DNA from: an uncultured Bacteroidota bacterium | Lineage (GTDB): Bacteria > Bacteroidota > Bacteroidia > Flavobacteriales > Flavobacteriaceae | Reading direction: 5' to 3' | NCBI GenBank assembly: GCA_913060705.1 | Contig: CAJXTX010000001.1 | Coordinates: 62,001-126,000, forward strand | DNA: 64,000 bases | Shown here: piece by piece, positions 8,735 through 16,630 of the stretch | Position numbering within the stretch: the first letter of the stretch is position 1 | Layout of the letters: the number at the start of each line of letters is the position of its first letter | The notes under the pieces: model-generated | Database searches by the model: none | What the model saw: the letters and a program-made list of their open reading frames with translations, nothing else | What the model was told of the DNA's origin: nothing | Made by a program: the position numbers and the translations under genes

Positions 8735-8742
8735 TATCTTTG
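8735..8742 (+). promoter_or_regulatory. Bacteroidota -7 element (TATCTTTG) for mutS2
   Basis: Matches TAnnTTTG, 11 nt before the ATG at 8754. Confidence 0.5.
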
Positions 8743-8753
8743 TGCTCCTAAGA

Positions 8754-10907
8754 ATGAATGCAGTTTTTAAAAAGGCCCTTGTAGATCTTGAGTTTGATGC
8801 TGTTTGCAATCAAATAGCCCTTCTATGCACCAATGAGAAGGCAAAAGAAGATGCAGTTGCACTACCCATTTACTTTTCAGAAGATGAGGTAATGCGAACA
8901 CTACGCTATACTTCAGAATATCTCTCGAGTTTTGAGAATGAAAACCGTATTCCAAACCACGGGTTTGACAGCATTAGCGAAGAACTCGGATTATTGAGAA
9001 TTGAGAATACAGCTATTGAGCCTGAAGGGCTTCAGCGCATCGCACAAGTTTGCACGCTTTTTGAAGCGCATTACAAGTTCTTTAAGAAATTCAACACCTA
9101 CTATCCTACCCTAGCTTCTAGGCTTGATTCCCTAGTGTATGAGGCGGAGATCAAAAAACAAATTGGTGAGGTAATAGATCGTTTTGGGGTTATCAAATCG
9201 AATGCCTCTCCTGTATTAAACGACTTAAGGCGCTCGATTAATGAGGTGCGCGCAAAAATCAACCAAAGTTTTGGTGCCTCATTAAGTCATTACACCAAAT
9301 TGGACTACCTGGATGACATCAGAGAATCAGTGATTGAAAATCAACGGGTTTTGGCGGTGAAAGCCATGTACCGTAGAAAGGTCAAAGGAAGTCTTCTAGG
9401 GTCATCTAAAACAGGATCTATTGTTTATATCGTTCCTGAATCTACCCAACAGCACTCTCGTGCATTGGCCGATTTACTCTACGAAGAAGGTCAAGAAATT
9501 AGAAGGATCTTATTGCTTCTCACATCATTTATACGTCCATTTCGCAGAGATCTAGAGCTATACACACGTTATCTTATTCAGATTGATATTATTGCAGCAA
9601 AAGCGAGGTACGCTCAAAAGATCAATGGGATTATGCCTGAGGTGAACTCATCGCAACACTTGTTTTTAAAGGATGCTTATCATCCATTGCTTCTTATCCA
9701 GAATCGTAAAGAAAACAGAGTGACAAAACCTCAAACCATTGAGCTTCATCCTGAAAATAGAATTATTGTTATTTCTGGACCAAATGCGGGGGGTAAGAGT
9801 ATTACGCTTAAAACCGTTGGACTCCTTCAGCTCATGATTCAAGCTGGGATACTAATACCTGTTCACAGAAGCAGTACAGTATGCTTGTTTGAAAATTTTA
9901 TGACCGATATAGGCGATAATCAGTCTATTGAAAACCACCTTAGCACCTATAGCTTTAGACTCAAAAATATGCGACAGTTTTTGCAGAAATGCGACGAGTC
10001 TACCCTGTTTTTGATTGATGAATTTGGTACAGGTTCTGATCCAGAACTTGGCGGAGCTCTTGCTGAGGCGTTTTTAGAAGAATTTTATGAGCGCAAATCC
10101 TTCGGCGTAATTACTACGCATTATTCGAATCTTAAATTATTGGCAAACGAGCTAGAGCATGCTACTAATGCGAATATGTTATTCGATAATAAGAGCCTTG
10201 AGCCCATTTATCAATTGGTTTTAGGTGAGGCAGGTAGCTCATTTACATTTGAGGTTGCTGAAAAGAACGGTATCCCCTACCGCTTTTTGAATCGAGCAAA
10301 GAAAAAGATTGAACGCGGAAAGGTTCGATTTGATCAAACCATAGCAAAGCTTCAGAAAGAGCGCTCAAAGATGACTAAGACTGAATCAGCCTTAGACGAG
10401 CAGGCCCAACGCGCCAAAAAAGAGGCAGAGCGACTCGAGAAACTCAATGAAAAACTCGACGACAAATTGAGAAGTTACCAACAATTATACGATTACCACC
10501 AGCGAATGATTCAGCTTGGTCAAAAGCTTGATGAGCTATCGGAACGCTATTTTGTAGATCAAAAGAAGCGGACTCTGATCAGTGGGGTCTTACATTTGGT
10601 AGAGACTGAGAACAGTAAGCGAAAGAAGAAAAACGCTACAGAAGTTAAAGCCGAACGAAAGACTAAAAAGGTTCAAGAGCGGTCTCTAAAGCAAGAAATC
10701 AAAGAGCTGCCCAAACAGTCAAAGCCCAAGACCGATAAAACGAAAAAAGCCAAGCCGAATATTAAGAGTTTTAAAATTGGGGATCGTGTTCGATTAGAGG
10801 AGAGCAAATCAACTGGAACGATAGATGCTATTGAGAAGGAAATTGCGACAGTCAATTATGGTATGTTCACAACAAAGGTTCATTTGTCGAAGCTAGAAAA
10901 AACGTAA
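8754..10907 (+). CDS. mutS2: MutS2-family ATPase lacking a recognisable Smr domain
   Basis: VISGPNAGGKSITLKTVGLLQLM (Walker A), LFLIDEFGTGSDPELGGALAEA (Walker B); protein ends after a KOW-like segment. Confidence 0.85.
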   Translation: MNAVFKKALVDLEFDAVCNQIALLCTNEKAKEDAVALPIYFSEDEVMRTLRYTSEYLSSFENENRIPNHGFDSISEELGLLRIENTAIEPEGLQRIAQVCTLFEAHYKFFKKFNTYYPTLASRLDSLVYEAEIKKQIGEVIDRFGVIKSNASPVLNDLRRSINEVRAKINQSFGASLSHYTKLDYLDDIRESVIENQRVLAVKAMYRRKVKGSLLGSSKTGSIVYIVPESTQQHSRALADLLYEEGQEIRRILLLLTSFIRPFRRDLELYTRYLIQIDIIAAKARYAQKINGIMPEVNSSQHLFLKDAYHPLLLIQNRKENRVTKPQTIELHPENRIIVISGPNAGGKSITLKTVGLLQLMIQAGILIPVHRSSTVCLFENFMTDIGDNQSIENHLSTYSFRLKNMRQFLQKCDESTLFLIDEFGTGSDPELGGALAEAFLEEFYERKSFGVITTHYSNLKLLANELEHATNANMLFDNKSLEPIYQLVLGEAGSSFTFEVAEKNGIPYRFLNRAKKKIERGKVRFDQTIAKLQKERSKMTKTESALDEQAQRAKKEAERLEKLNEKLDDKLRSYQQLYDYHQRMIQLGQKLDELSERYFVDQKKRTLISGVLHLVETENSKRKKKNATEVKAERKTKKVQERSLKQEIKELPKQSKPKTDKTKKAKPNIKSFKIGDRVRLEESKSTGTIDAIEKEIATVNYGMFTTKVHLSKLEKT

Positions 10908-11254
10908 TGGATGCCCCTACTATCATCTACGACTCAACATGTGCTTTTTGCTCGGGCTCTATAGAATGGGTGGCCAAGCGAGATCCAAAACACTACTTTA
11001 ACTACGCCTCATCAACATCTGAATTAGCGATTGATTGGATGAAATCTAGAGGTGTAAACCCTATTCTGGCCGATAAAACGGTGATTCTGGTTGTGCCTAA
11101 AGAAGGATGGTATATACGTTCTGAAGCCTTACACAGGATCTGTATAAAACTTCAGCCCAAACCGTGGTGGAACTTTATTTTCAATCTACTTCCTTACTCT
11201 TTTCTCGATATCGGATATAAGATTATCGCTTATTTCAGAAGCTCGATTAGATGA
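10907..11254 (+). CDS. DCC-family thiol-disulfide oxidoreductase-like protein
   Basis: IIYDSTCAFCSGSIEWVAKRDPKHYFNYAS (DxxCxxC) at the N-terminus. Confidence 0.85.
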   Translation: MDAPTIIYDSTCAFCSGSIEWVAKRDPKHYFNYASSTSELAIDWMKSRGVNPILADKTVILVVPKEGWYIRSEALHRICIKLQPKPWWNFIFNLLPYSFLDIGYKIIAYFRSSIR

Positions 11255-12402
11255 TCTAGTCGTTGATCTACAGGCTCTTGACGATCAAAGGAATGACTCA
11301 TGTATTCAAGCGACGAAAAGAGGCCGTTTGATTTTAGGTTCTGTACAAGCGCTGCGTATTCTGAGGAGGTCTTTCCCGAAAAAAGTAGGTCTTTGTCTAA
11401 AGCGTTACGCTGTTGGTAGAGCTCCACAAATCCGGGTAAATACAATCGATCTTTTGTAAAACCACCTCCACGATAAAGGCGTGTGACCATATTAAAGGCT
11501 CTATCATTAGAAAGCCCAAATGTTTTGGTAAGGGCGTCAAAGGCTTCTACAAAGGTCACTCCTTTCACCACATAATCGGCCGTAATCACTCTTAAGGCTA
11601 ACTCAAATAAGCGGTCATAGTCTAGAGCTCCACAATAATATTCAGATAATACGGCGAGTCCCTCTTGAGTTTGTACGTTAAACGGAAATCCCAAAGAAAA
11701 GATTTTTAATTGCTGCTTTTCTGCATTGAAGGTGGTCACGAGATGTACCCCGATTTCGTGATGAGCCAACGACTTAAGTTCTTGAGCCGAAAAACGTTCT
11801 CCCTTCTTGATCAATACGGCTTTTTGGCTATTACTCACCATAGCCTTAGAACTCATGTGTGTCACCGCTTTTACAGTGACCTCGAATCCGTAATTTGATA
11901 CAAACTCTTTCATGAATTGCACTGCTTCTTCCGCTGAGAAATTTTTGATTGCGGGAGTTTGGTCGTTAAAATTCGGAGCTGCGTTCACTATAATTGAAGC
12001 CCACTCTAATTCCTTCTGTGTTGGCGCTCCAAAAGTTTTCAAACTTGATCGCAAAAAGAGAGGTTCTTTCCCTACATGTTGGAGGCAATCCAAAACACCA
12101 CTAAAATACCATCTAACCTCCTGATAAAAGTCTGCAACACCTTGTTCTTCAATTTTTTGGATTTTTAATTTGAAGAGTTCCTTCCGAATGCGCTCAATAT
12201 TAAGTGGGCATTTGGGGTATCTAAATTGCGGAGACTCGATAAACTTGCTTTTAAAGAACTGCTGTTTGACCTTCTCAGTATTGATTGGATTTATGTAGAG
12301 CAACAATTCTACTTTTCCGAGAAGTTTATGCAAGCTCGAGTCAATCTCCTGAAGTTTCTCAAATGCTACCTTCATAAGCTCAATTAGCACGCATTTGATC
12401 AA
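11230..12402 (-). CDS. DUF1704 / QEGLA-motif zinc metallopeptidase (MATCAP-like family)
   Basis: LAHHEIGVHLVTTFN (HExxxH) followed by TQEGLAVLSEYYCG (QEGLA). Confidence 0.85.
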   Translation of the reverse strand: MIKCVLIELMKVAFEKLQEIDSSLHKLLGKVELLLYINPINTEKVKQQFFKSKFIESPQFRYPKCPLNIERIRKELFKLKIQKIEEQGVADFYQEVRWYFSGVLDCLQHVGKEPLFLRSSLKTFGAPTQKELEWASIIVNAAPNFNDQTPAIKNFSAEEAVQFMKEFVSNYGFEVTVKAVTHMSSKAMVSNSQKAVLIKKGERFSAQELKSLAHHEIGVHLVTTFNAEKQQLKIFSLGFPFNVQTQEGLAVLSEYYCGALDYDRLFELALRVITADYVVKGVTFVEAFDALTKTFGLSNDRAFNMVTRLYRGGGFTKDRLYLPGFVELYQQRNALDKDLLFSGKTSSEYAALVQNLKSNGLFSSLEYMSHSFDRQEPVDQRLDHLIELLK

Positions 12403-13186
12403 CTACCATTTGCATCTTAGTGGTGGTGTCTTGAATAGCGTTCTCATACAATTCACCTGTAAGCTCATCGCAATAAAACTTTTTAAATTCAGTGGCAAAT
12501 ACTAGTACATTTTTATAGTGCGTAGAGAGGTGTTTCAAGAACGCCCCTTTACCATAAAATGTATCGTTTTCAGCCACCCAGTAGGTATCAAATACTCTGG
12601 TGAGTGTCTTGAGATAAGTATTCATTACGCCGCTCCATTTCTGCATGTCGATTTGACTTGTTCCAATATTAATTTCAGGAACAGCTCTATCCCATCTTTT
12701 AAAATTATAGCTATGAATATCGAAAACCAGTATAGGTTGTTCAGAGAAATAGTTGACAAGGGACTTTACAAGGCAATCTATTACCTGATAACATCTTCTA
12801 TACCGTTTTAAAGCCTCTTCTCGCTCTTTGGCAGTAAGCGGACGACTCCAAATAGTTTTTCCCCAGGCGGTTTCATAAACTGCCTCTGATTCTGTTCGAT
12901 TCAGATCGTAATAATACCTGCTGTCTAAGCCCTTAAACAAAATGGGTATATCTCCTAAAAAACGTGCTGTACAAGGATCTTCCTCGTACCAACGCTCTTG
13001 CTCTGAAAGCACGCAATTCTGCTGAAGATGATGCGGAAAGTGGTGTCCGTCATGTATGGCAGCCCCTATTATGGGTTCGTAGGAGGAAATTTTAAGGTGA
13101 AAACAGTGCTCTGAGTCTATAGCCTCAAACGGTATTCTCTTTGCGATCAACGCACAAATCTCTTCTAGAGATAGTTCTTGTTGCAT
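12380..13186 (-). CDS. N-formylglutamate amidohydrolase-like protein
   Basis: IGAAIHDGHHFPHHL, ILVFDIHSYNFKR, INIGTSQ; 23-nt overlap with the DUF1704 gene. Confidence 0.75.
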   Translation of the reverse strand: MQQELSLEEICALIAKRIPFEAIDSEHCFHLKISSYEPIIGAAIHDGHHFPHHLQQNCVLSEQERWYEEDPCTARFLGDIPILFKGLDSRYYYDLNRTESEAVYETAWGKTIWSRPLTAKEREEALKRYRRCYQVIDCLVKSLVNYFSEQPILVFDIHSYNFKRWDRAVPEINIGTSQIDMQKWSGVMNTYLKTLTRVFDTYWVAENDTFYGKGAFLKHLSTHYKNVLVFATEFKKFYCDELTGELYENAIQDTTTKMQMVVDQMRAN

Positions 13187-13195
13187 AGTACTTCT

Positions 13196-14227
13196 CTATG
13201 AATCTTGAACCTCAGAGCGCAATTTTGAGCGTCTATTGATCTTAAAGAGCATATCATCTACTTTCTCCTCAATAAAATCGATCACCTTTCTTTGAACCTT
13301 TGTCTTGTTCATTTTATTCACCGGCACTACTCCACCAGGAGACATCACATTCACTTCAATAAGCTTACCATTGATAACGTCTATCCCTACAAAGTATAAC
13401 CCGTCTTTAACGAGTTTAGGACCAATCTTCTTACAAATAGTCAACTCGTGTTTGGTCAAACTGTGCTTTTCATACGTTCCTCCTACAGAAAGATTTGAAC
13501 GGTGGTCTTTAGCATCTGGAACACGACGGACCGCACCTATAGGCTCTCCATTAAGGAGTAAGATTCGGATATCTCCTTTCTCAGCTCCTTCAACGTATTC
13601 TTGCAATATCACATAGTTTGAAGAGCCGTCTGAATTGGTCAGGTAAAAGTCAAGGAGTGAATTGATATTTTTCATCGCTGACTTTTCAATGAGTATAACC
13701 CCTGAGCCCCCGTAACCATTGAGTGGCTTCAAAATCATTTTATCTGATTTTGACTCTTCTATTTGACGCACGAGATAGTCCTTGTTTTTAGAAACGTGCG
13801 TATTGGGTATCACATCTTCATGAATATTACCAAAGGCTGCTGTATACAACTTGTTGTTCGCCTCTCTTAAACCTTCAATAGAGTTAAGGATGAATACATC
13901 GTCCTTAACACTATCTAAGAAATTGAGCATCAACGGATCCATGGGTGGATTTGCCCGCATAAAGATGCAATCAAATCCGGCTAGAGGAAGCATTTGGTGT
14001 CTGAAAGAACACCCCTTGTAAAAGGTTTTGATGCTTGCCGGAACCTTATCAGGACTTTTTATCACCTGACAAAAAGCAGATGTAACACGATCTCGAATGG
14101 TCAAGTTTCCGGGTGTACAAATCGCAACTTTGTGTCCTCTTGAAACACACTCGTGAATAAAAGTAAGGGTGGTATCTCGTTCAGGGTTAATGCTTTCCCA
14201 TGGATACATTAAAAAACAGATGTACAT
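13196..14227 (-). CDS. ATP-grasp ligase, glutathione-synthetase-like
   Basis: MILKPLNGYGGSGVILIE, YVILQEYVEGAEKGDIRILLLNGEPIGAVRR, FVGIDVINGKLIEVNVMSPGG. Confidence 0.85.
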   Translation of the reverse strand: MYICFLMYPWESINPERDTTLTFIHECVSRGHKVAICTPGNLTIRDRVTSAFCQVIKSPDKVPASIKTFYKGCSFRHQMLPLAGFDCIFMRANPPMDPLMLNFLDSVKDDVFILNSIEGLREANNKLYTAAFGNIHEDVIPNTHVSKNKDYLVRQIEESKSDKMILKPLNGYGGSGVILIEKSAMKNINSLLDFYLTNSDGSSNYVILQEYVEGAEKGDIRILLLNGEPIGAVRRVPDAKDHRSNLSVGGTYEKHSLTKHELTICKKIGPKLVKDGLYFVGIDVINGKLIEVNVMSPGGVVPVNKMNKTKVQRKVIDFIEEKVDDMLFKINRRSKLRSEVQDS

Positions 14228-14240
14228 AAAATAGAGCGTG

Positions 14241-15560
14241 TTACTTTTTAATTGCGTCTAAATGATCGTCCCAATTTTTAGGTTTAGGATCATGTAACTT
14301 ATTCAGCTTTTTAGCTACAATAGAGGCTACGGTTGCATCACCCGTCACATTTACCACTGTTCTGCACATATCTAATGGCCTATCAACAGCAAAAATCAAA
14401 GCCAGTCCGATCGCTAACTTTTCTGACGGAAAGCCAATGGATTCTAAAACGATAACTAACATGACCATACCCGCTCCCGGCACTGCAGCTGCTCCAATGG
14501 AAGCCAATAAGGCGGTCAATATAATCGTTAATTGGTTGCCTAAAGTTAAATCAAAGCCAAGTGCTTGTGAAATAAAAACTGCTGCGATAGCCTGATACAC
14601 ACTGGTTCCATCCATATTGATTGTAGCACCCACAGGTAAGACAAAACTGCTCACCTCCTGATCTACACCTACGTGCTCTTCAAGACGTTCCATGGTTACC
14701 GGAAGGGTTGCAGCACTAGAGGAGGTTGAAAAAGCCAACAATTGCGCTGGACTCATTTGTTTGATAAACCAGAAAGGATTTTTTTTCACAACGAACTTGA
14801 CCAATACCATGTAGAATAAGATCATTACGAATAGCCCGAAGACGAGTAAGAATGAATACTTCATTAAGGCCACAAGTAGCTCAGGATTGTTACTAGAAAC
14901 TACTACGCTTGATAATAATGCAAACACCGCATAGGGAGCAAAGAGCATGATCAAATCGACCATCTTTAGTATCACATCATTCAGTGTATCAAAAAGCTGC
15001 TTTATCGGTTTCGCCTTCTTCTCTCCAATTAAGAGCATTGAGATGGCGAAAAAAATGGCAAAAAAGATAACCTGAAGCATTAAGCCATTGTTCGAAAGCG
15101 CTGCAAATAAATTATCGGGTACCATGTCGACTACAAACTGAAGTGGTCCGGCTTCTTTTTGAGCGCTAGCTGTGGCAATCTTTGAGGTAACCCCACTGTC
15201 TGAAGCGTAGGTATCTGTTAAGCTCGAGATTGTTTCTTCACTAATTCCATTACCAGGATTAAAGGTATTTACCAATCCAAGACCGATAAAAATAGCGACA
15301 ACGGTGGTCATCATGTAGAGTCCAAAGGTGCGAAGCCCCATATCCTTAAACTTGGCAATGTCCTTTAAATCTGAAATCCCTTTAATCAGAGAGGCTAGGA
15401 TTAGCGGTACTGCAATCAGTTTCAACAGACGCACAAATATGGTTCCAATTGGAAGGACCCAATCTGAAACGAAAGATGAACCCCAATCGAAGAAGGTCAT
15501 TACAAAGCCAAAGATGACTCCGGCTACCATTCCAATCACGATTTTCCAATGCAATGCCAT
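14241..15560 (-). CDS. Dicarboxylate/amino acid:cation symporter (DAACS, GltP/GltT-like)
   Basis: AFSTSSSAATLPVTMERLEE...SSFVLPVGATINMDGTSVYQA...AVDRPLDMCRTVVNVTGDA. Confidence 0.95.
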   Translation of the reverse strand: MALHWKIVIGMVAGVIFGFVMTFFDWGSSFVSDWVLPIGTIFVRLLKLIAVPLILASLIKGISDLKDIAKFKDMGLRTFGLYMMTTVVAIFIGLGLVNTFNPGNGISEETISSLTDTYASDSGVTSKIATASAQKEAGPLQFVVDMVPDNLFAALSNNGLMLQVIFFAIFFAISMLLIGEKKAKPIKQLFDTLNDVILKMVDLIMLFAPYAVFALLSSVVVSSNNPELLVALMKYSFLLVFGLFVMILFYMVLVKFVVKKNPFWFIKQMSPAQLLAFSTSSSAATLPVTMERLEEHVGVDQEVSSFVLPVGATINMDGTSVYQAIAAVFISQALGFDLTLGNQLTIILTALLASIGAAAVPGAGMVMLVIVLESIGFPSEKLAIGLALIFAVDRPLDMCRTVVNVTGDATVASIVAKKLNKLHDPKPKNWDDHLDAIKK

Positions 15561-15565
15561 AGCTA

Positions 15566-16630
15566 TTAAATTTTAGAGGTTTTTGCCATCATAATGTGAT
15601 CTGCGAGCACCAATGCGGCCATAGCTTCTACTATAGGCACGGCTCTCGGAACCACACATGGATCGTGACGACCCTTGCCATGGTTGGTTTCAATCTTACC
15701 CTCATTGGTGAGTGATTCGTAGGATTGTAATAGAGTTGCCACCGGCTTGAAAGCTACGTCAAAATAAATATCCATGCCGTTTGAGATGCCTCCCTGAATT
15801 CCTCCACTGAAATTCGTTTTTGTGGTACCATCCTCGTTGAAATAGTCATTGTGATCACTTCCAAGCATAGCAGCCCCCTCAAATCCACTTCCATAAGCAA
15901 AGCCTTTTACTGCATTTATAGAAAGCATAGCCGCCCCTAGATTGGCATGTAACTTTTCAAATACGGGCTCACCCAATCCAACCGGCACATTTTGAATAAC
16001 ACATCGTATCACACCGCCTACAGTATCGCCTTTCTTCTTAACCTCACTGATATAGGAGATCATTTTCTCAGCCATTCCTGGATCCGGACAGCGAACTACA
16101 TTTTCTTCAGCACGCTCAAGTTCTAACTCTTGATAGGGCTGTTCTAACTTTAAAGAGCCCACTTGGATGACAAATGCTTTAATGGCTATGGGGCTTATGT
16201 ATTGTTTAGCAATTGCACCGGCCACCACTCTAGATACCGTTTCTCGCGCAGATGAGCGACCTCCTCCTCTATAATCTCTAAAGCCATATTTCTTATCGTA
16301 AACAAAATCGGCATGAGAGGGTCTATACGAGTTTTGTATGTGCGAATAGTCCTTTGATTTTTGATTGGTATTCTGAATAGTGAAACCGATGGGCGTTCCG
16401 GTTGTTACGCCTTCGAAAATTCCTGAGTGGAAAACTACTGCATCAGGTTCTTTTCGTTGTGTAGTTATTTTAGATTGACCTGGCCTACGCCTTTCGAGGT
16501 CTTTTTGCACCATTGATTCATCGATACGAACTCCCGCAGGGCATCCGTCGATTATACCTCCGAGCGCTGGTCCGTGCGATTCACCGAAGGTTGTGAGCCG
16601 AAATAAGTTCCCAAAACTATTTGAGGCCAT
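15566..16630 (-). CDS. aroC: Chorismate synthase
   Basis: [30 protein letters not shown]...[19 protein letters not shown]...[20 protein letters not shown]. Confidence 0.98.

Follow-up and report, generated by a model that had tools for sequence, protein, structure and literature searches.

Why does a flavobacterial chromosome place an amide ligase directly beside a relative of the human tubulin carboxypeptidase? The question arises from four tightly packed minus-strand genes in the window, by which we mean the whole analyzed stretch of 64,000 nucleotides (contig CAJXTX010000001.1, positions 62,001 to 126,000) from an uncultured member of the Flavobacteriaceae. The initial annotation read these genes as a possible amino acid ligation-and-removal system consisting of a DAACS symporter, a glutathione synthetase (GshB)-like ATP-grasp ligase, an N-formylglutamate amidohydrolase (NFGA)-like protein, and a MATCAP/DUF1704 metallopeptidase. 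We confirmed all four open reading frames (ORFs) at their positions, and Pfam and NCBIfam scans bore out the gene types. The genes for the ligase (positions 13196 to 14227), the NFGA-fold enzyme (12380 to 13186), and MATCAP (11230 to 12402) almost certainly work as one unit, because they travel together across many bacterial phyla. This part of the proposed four-gene system is conserved, but the symporter (14241 to 15560) was judged to lie outside it.

We searched for the three genes in 59 related genomes, in a phylum sample of 396 Bacteroidota genomes, and in a scan of GTDB contigs, from which the best-scoring 80 of 573 candidate loci were kept; all fractions out of 80 given here apply to that set. 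MATCAP was present in 21 of the 59 relatives, strong ligase matches fell in exactly the same 21, and NFGA was found in 20 of those. Among the 396 Bacteroidota, 20 carried MATCAP and 19 had a strong ligase match, all 19 inside the 20 (Fisher P = 2e-16 for the relatives and 2e-31 for the phylum sample, uncorrected for relatedness). The possibility that the three enzymes lack conserved co-occurrence in related genomes thus fell away. The ligase adjoined MATCAP in 79/80 loci, with the 80th ending at a contig edge, and an NFGA or an AspA/AstE-type deacylase was present in 73/80. Apparent partner-less loci from ORF calling were rechecked with tblastn, and most were ORF-calling failures. The loci span Bacteroidota, Gammaproteobacteria and other Proteobacteria, Planctomycetota, Gemmatimonadota, Acidobacteriota, Calditrichota, Kiritimatiellota, and Campylobacterales, and the gaps between module genes are often −4 to +30 nucleotides (nt). 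The gene order typical of the family is ligase-NFGA-MATCAP. On rhizobial plasmids, the genes again run NFGA-MATCAP-ligase. When loci are compared in pairs, the identities of the three proteins correlate (r = 0.91 to 0.94), a pattern consistent with inheritance as a unit.

Fusions and joint decay also link the genes. Class A, to which the window belongs, has a MATCAP of ~385 amino acids (aa) with NFGA adjacent or fused; the fusions of NFGA to MATCAP occur in two relatives (G038 and G037) and two Photobacterium isolates. Class B has a MATCAP of ~610 aa plus a separate NFGA or AspA-like enzyme. Its N-terminal ~250 aa resemble NFGA (hhalign probability of 92% or 58%, depending on the alignment pair), and an AlphaFold2 (AF2) model of this region (pLDDT of 92) had best solved matches that included M14-like metallopeptidases at a low TM score of ~0.3 to 0.45, mixed with nucleoside phosphorylases. 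Where NFGA has its zinc histidine, 32/35 aligned class B sequences have Trp, Tyr, or Phe and 0/35 have His. We conclude with moderate confidence that the class B N-terminal region is a degenerate NFGA domain. Three genomes showed the module in decay. One relative (G015) retains a ligase remnant alone, made up of the first 67 residues followed by a stretch that matches the ligase C terminus, and neither MATCAP nor NFGA was found. Another (G017) has a class A MATCAP without adjacent ligase and NFGA, and this MATCAP has lost its zinc His and Glu (HEIGVN and QAG). Vibrio sp. HDW18 has a fused NFGA-MATCAP with no ligase nearby, and its NFGA part reads DMYA, not DIHS. These patterns of sequence loss suggest that the enzymes depend on one another. 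An apparent 956-aa ligase fusion in G286 was dismissed, as it is only an extended open frame in DNA of high GC content. In some genera, a rhodanese gene and a ~110-aa gene lie between ligase and NFGA (L068:7461-8303, L066:8357-8692, and L201), and these inserted genes are retained even when the remainder of the module has gone.

The ligase, the first gene of the module, encodes 343 aa of the PRK12458 "glutathione synthetase" subfamily (447 bits versus a cutoff of 408, NCBIfam). It contains both GshB domains (GSH-S_ATP, PF02955, 3e-55; GSH-S_N, PF02951, 2e-23), an ATP-binding loop GYGGSG (13700 to 13717, minus strand) in which G171, G173, and G174 are invariant (alignment A2), and the motif EVNVMSPGG (13331 to 13357, minus strand), which supplies the metal-site E and N. 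The ligase could be an ordinary glutathione synthetase, the product of gshB, that stands next to two unrelated hydrolases by chance. It passes the PRK05246 glutathione synthase cutoff (289.6 versus 272 bits, NCBIfam), and Escherichia coli GshB (1gsa) aligns over its full length and shares both domains, the ATP/metal-site residues, and the conserved Arg positions. However, the protein falls below the TIGR01380 equivalog cutoff for GshB (244.8 versus 299.05 bits), has FRSN and SPGG in place of the TRGN and SPTC of the E. coli enzyme (the SPTC position is held by SPGG or SPGA), and co-occurs almost perfectly with MATCAP. In profile searches, the PF04262 type of glutamate-cysteine ligase matched in 0/59 relatives and the PF04107 type in only 7, and the window's genome (G000, ~90% complete) had no match to either. 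Since no gamma-glutamylcysteine ligase was detected in that genome, the gene is not explained by ordinary glutathione synthesis, and the case of a glutathione synthetase beside a gshA homologue, raised in the initial annotation, failed. With the TIGR01380 result, this makes an ordinary glutathione synthetase a most improbable identity for the ligase.

The ligase also resembles RimK, the ribosomal protein S6-glutamate ligase, in its FRSN...GG loop and SPG motif, but RimK lacks the GSH-S_N half and scores far lower (92 versus 232 bits). The combination of a retained GSH-S_N domain and GshB-type Arg positions with RimK-like FRSN and SPGG is one of the points in favor of the ligation-and-hydrolysis module proposed below.

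MATCAP matched PF08014 at 3e-86 (290 bits versus a Pfam cutoff of 27) but fell below the TIGR02421 QEGLA cutoff (299.1 versus 338.65 bits), and the window protein represents a shorter, divergent class. Its match to the human KIAA0895L chain 7z5g was weak as a single sequence (5e-6) and clear as a profile (4e-19). The zinc-binding HExxxH motif, HEIGVH (11743 to 11760, minus strand), and QEGLA (11653 to 11667, minus strand), with its E as putative third zinc ligand, are both present and aligned with 7z5g. With the MATCAP/TMCP proteins (KIAA0895 and KIAA0895L), the bacterial form shares the domain, these zinc-site residues, and a KD...YL..G block; it differs in its operon coupling to an ATP-grasp ligase and an NFGA-fold enzyme, in having no tubulin, and, in class B, in the N-terminal domain that resembles an inactivated NFGA. 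The ORF is 390 aa if it starts at TTG 12402, a start that the 23-nt NFGA/MATCAP overlap in the initial annotation requires. An in-frame ATG at 12375, 4 nt past the NFGA stop, fits the aligned N termini better and is the probable true start, and so the overlap is probably not real.

NFGA, a predicted zinc amidohydrolase of 268 aa, matched PF05013 at 3e-14 (54 bits versus a Pfam cutoff of 28.9). Its AF2 model (pLDDT of 93.4) had 2q7s, an NFGA, as the best PDB match (TM score of 0.72), with carboxypeptidase A folds as more distant matches. In its DIHS motif (12710 to 12721, minus strand), D156 and H158, the putative third zinc ligand, are invariant (alignment A5). All five motifs named in the initial annotation were found, and the alignments show conservation of the residues at the zinc sites. 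NFGA shares its fold and putative zinc ligands with the HutG N-formylglutamate amidohydrolases (2q7s and 2odf), but it is only ~17% identical to 2q7s, and histidine-degradation genes are absent from the immediate neighborhood. The AspA/AstE deacylases resemble NFGA in that they hold its slot in other loci.

ATP-grasp ligases make amide bonds through acyl-phosphates. We propose, as the likeliest mechanism, that the three genes form one ATP-driven amide ligation-and-hydrolysis module that acts on a probably acidic residue and whose acceptor is less likely to be a protein than a peptide or small acid, and we regard this proposal as an even call. In the direction of reaction that we infer, the GshB-like enzyme would activate a carboxylate as an acyl-phosphate and join it to an amino acid, probably Glu or Asp. 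The MATCAP zinc peptidase would take the C-terminal residue off the ligase product or a relative of it, and the NFGA-fold enzyme, or the AspA/AstE-type deacylase elsewhere, would cleave the remaining acyl-amino acid bond. Ligation would be reversible, with ligase and hydrolases sharing one product. Judged from sequence, such a ligase/carboxypeptidase cycle would fit all of the observations. We favor an acidic amino acid as the reversibly ligated residue because of the activities of the two hydrolase families: NFGA and AspA/AstE enzymes hydrolyze N-acyl-Glu and N-acyl-Asp. For their part, TMCP1 and TMCP2, which belong to the MATCAP family, are tubulin-tail processing enzymes with deglutamylase activity (PMC10499314). 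In Photobacterium damselae grown in 1% versus 3% NaCl, adjacent "GshB" and QEGLA genes were up together, 38- and 27-fold, and rimK was also up 52-fold at low salt (PMC10308900). That this low-salt induction reflects control of the glutamate pool is speculation.

Several points weigh against a reversible ligation module. To our knowledge, no activity, substrate, or knockout has been reported for the module, and the preference for an acidic residue is argued solely from family resemblance. The 80 loci are the top scorers of 573 candidates and not a random sample. Gammaproteobacteria (Pseudoalteromonas and Legionella) and G241 include cases of a MATCAP with no ligase next to it, and MATCAP is therefore not always in need of a ligase. 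Two or three ligases occur at some loci, an arrangement not expected from a simple on/off cycle. Such tandem ligases were seen in L135, L143, L121, L122, L124, and L157, and two of the loci (L135 and L143) also have two MATCAPs.

These multiplied loci would suit a different explanation, the stepwise synthesis of a dedicated peptide or peptide-like metabolite, in which one or more ligases build the product and NFGA/AspA and MATCAP deprotect intermediates by taking off an N-acyl group or a C-terminal residue, so that the activities are sequential and not opposed. A GCS2-NFGA-ATP-grasp neighborhood in two relatives, where NFGA is paired with other amidoligases, also agrees with this explanation. 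The 80 loci showed no further tailoring enzyme, transporter, or regulator conserved beside the module, which argues against it, and we regard dedicated stepwise synthesis as rather unlikely. The neighboring asnB, dNK, CorA, and Macro genes vary by clade, and therefore there is no common extra partner. The GCS2-ATP-grasp-NFGA genes (L085 in G017 and L086 in G024) form a separate neighborhood, apparently another NFGA-linked amidoligase system.

The relationship of MATCAP to the tubulin carboxypeptidase KIAA0895L, with the HExxxH motif and third ligand E conserved, raises the alternative that the module edits C-terminal tails on a single bacterial protein or a small number of them, with the ligase adding residues and MATCAP and NFGA removing them, as in the tubulin tyrosination/glutamylation cycle. 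RimK, which shares FRSN and SPG with the ligase, modifies a protein C terminus, and in two Photobacterium isolates the gene just upstream encodes a DUF413 protein whose tail is acidic and in one case ends in SDDDIDY. However, the ligase has the small-molecule GshB architecture and no match to the TTL family (PF03133; Pfam, E ≤ 0.1), the DUF413 tail of the second Photobacterium ends differently (DLDI), and no conserved small carrier ORF was found within 900 bp of the 80 modules, although a carrier encoded elsewhere is possible. We consider tail editing unlikely, and the DUF413 protein as its substrate is a lead only. A broader version, in which ligase, MATCAP, and carboxypeptidase-fold enzyme would add a C-terminal amino acid to bacterial proteins and take it off again as a counterpart of the tubulin tail code and the eukaryotic detyrosinase would derive from such a ligase-coupled system, seems doubtful indeed. 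In the tubulin tyrosination cycle (TTL with VASH/MATCAP/CCP), an ATP-grasp ligase is likewise partnered by MATCAP- and carboxypeptidase-fold enzymes, but the module ligase comes from another ATP-grasp family and has no known protein substrate. The resemblance would be one of function. In LysW/amino-group-carrier systems, which use the LysX ligase and the LysK peptidase, ATP-grasp ligation is likewise followed by metallopeptidase release, but the module has no conserved small carrier gene and its peptidase family differs. A divergent LysR gene and a DUF413 (MaoP-like) gene lie directly upstream of the module in L214:3715-4182 and L216 (Photobacterium) and L209:3864-4223 (Vibrio), and the acidic C-terminal tails of the DUF413 proteins end in SDDDIDY, DLDI, and TEED.

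Our literature search found no description of the module, biochemical or otherwise. An earlier in silico description may exist; the amidoligase survey that Iyer and colleagues published in 2009 may mention such neighborhoods. Bacterial MATCAPs carry only the annotation "QEGLA motif protein," and the partner that nearly always accompanies them is labeled glutathione synthetase in organisms where no glutathione pathway was detected. Recognition of the module corrects both annotations, puts an amide ligase next to the bacterial relatives of a human tubulin carboxypeptidase, and yields a defined set of three enzymes for assay. Identification of the acceptor would bring to light a reversible peptide-like metabolite or a protein modification, new in either case, that extends across Bacteroidota, Proteobacteria, Planctomycetota, and others.

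The symporter, a GltP-like SDF protein (PF00375, 3e-124), is near-universal in Flavobacteriaceae and was present in 15/16 module-free genomes tested. It occupied the same place, next to aroC, in 8/8 module-free sites read, with DCC and mutS2 on its other side where the contig reaches (aroC-gltP-DCC-mutS2), and it is absent from class B loci and from class A loci elsewhere. It was rejected as a module member and judged to be a flanking housekeeping gene. In the window, the conserved flanks outside the module are aroC (15566 to 16630, minus strand), a DCC1-like thiol-disulfide oxidoreductase gene on the opposite side (10907 to 11254, plus strand), and a gene that we take to be mutS2-like from general family knowledge and its consistent position (8742 to 10907, plus strand).

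The standalone MATCAPs of Legionella (L211) and Pseudoalteromonas (L210) lie by murI, the glutamate racemase gene, and close to a gene for an AbgT p-aminobenzoyl-glutamate transporter, which may point to glutamate. The sole phage record with a MATCAP (L215; OQ572403.1, Pseudomonas phage Y1, UNVERIFIED) resembles a bacterial chromosome, with neighbors named by eye as a lysS-like gene, a TetR-type regulator, and an OmpA-like protein, and may contain host DNA. Finally, the window DCC is ~75% identical to the DCC of close module carriers and only ~25% identical to the same-site DCC in same-genus module-free genomes (L202, L203, L205, and L207).

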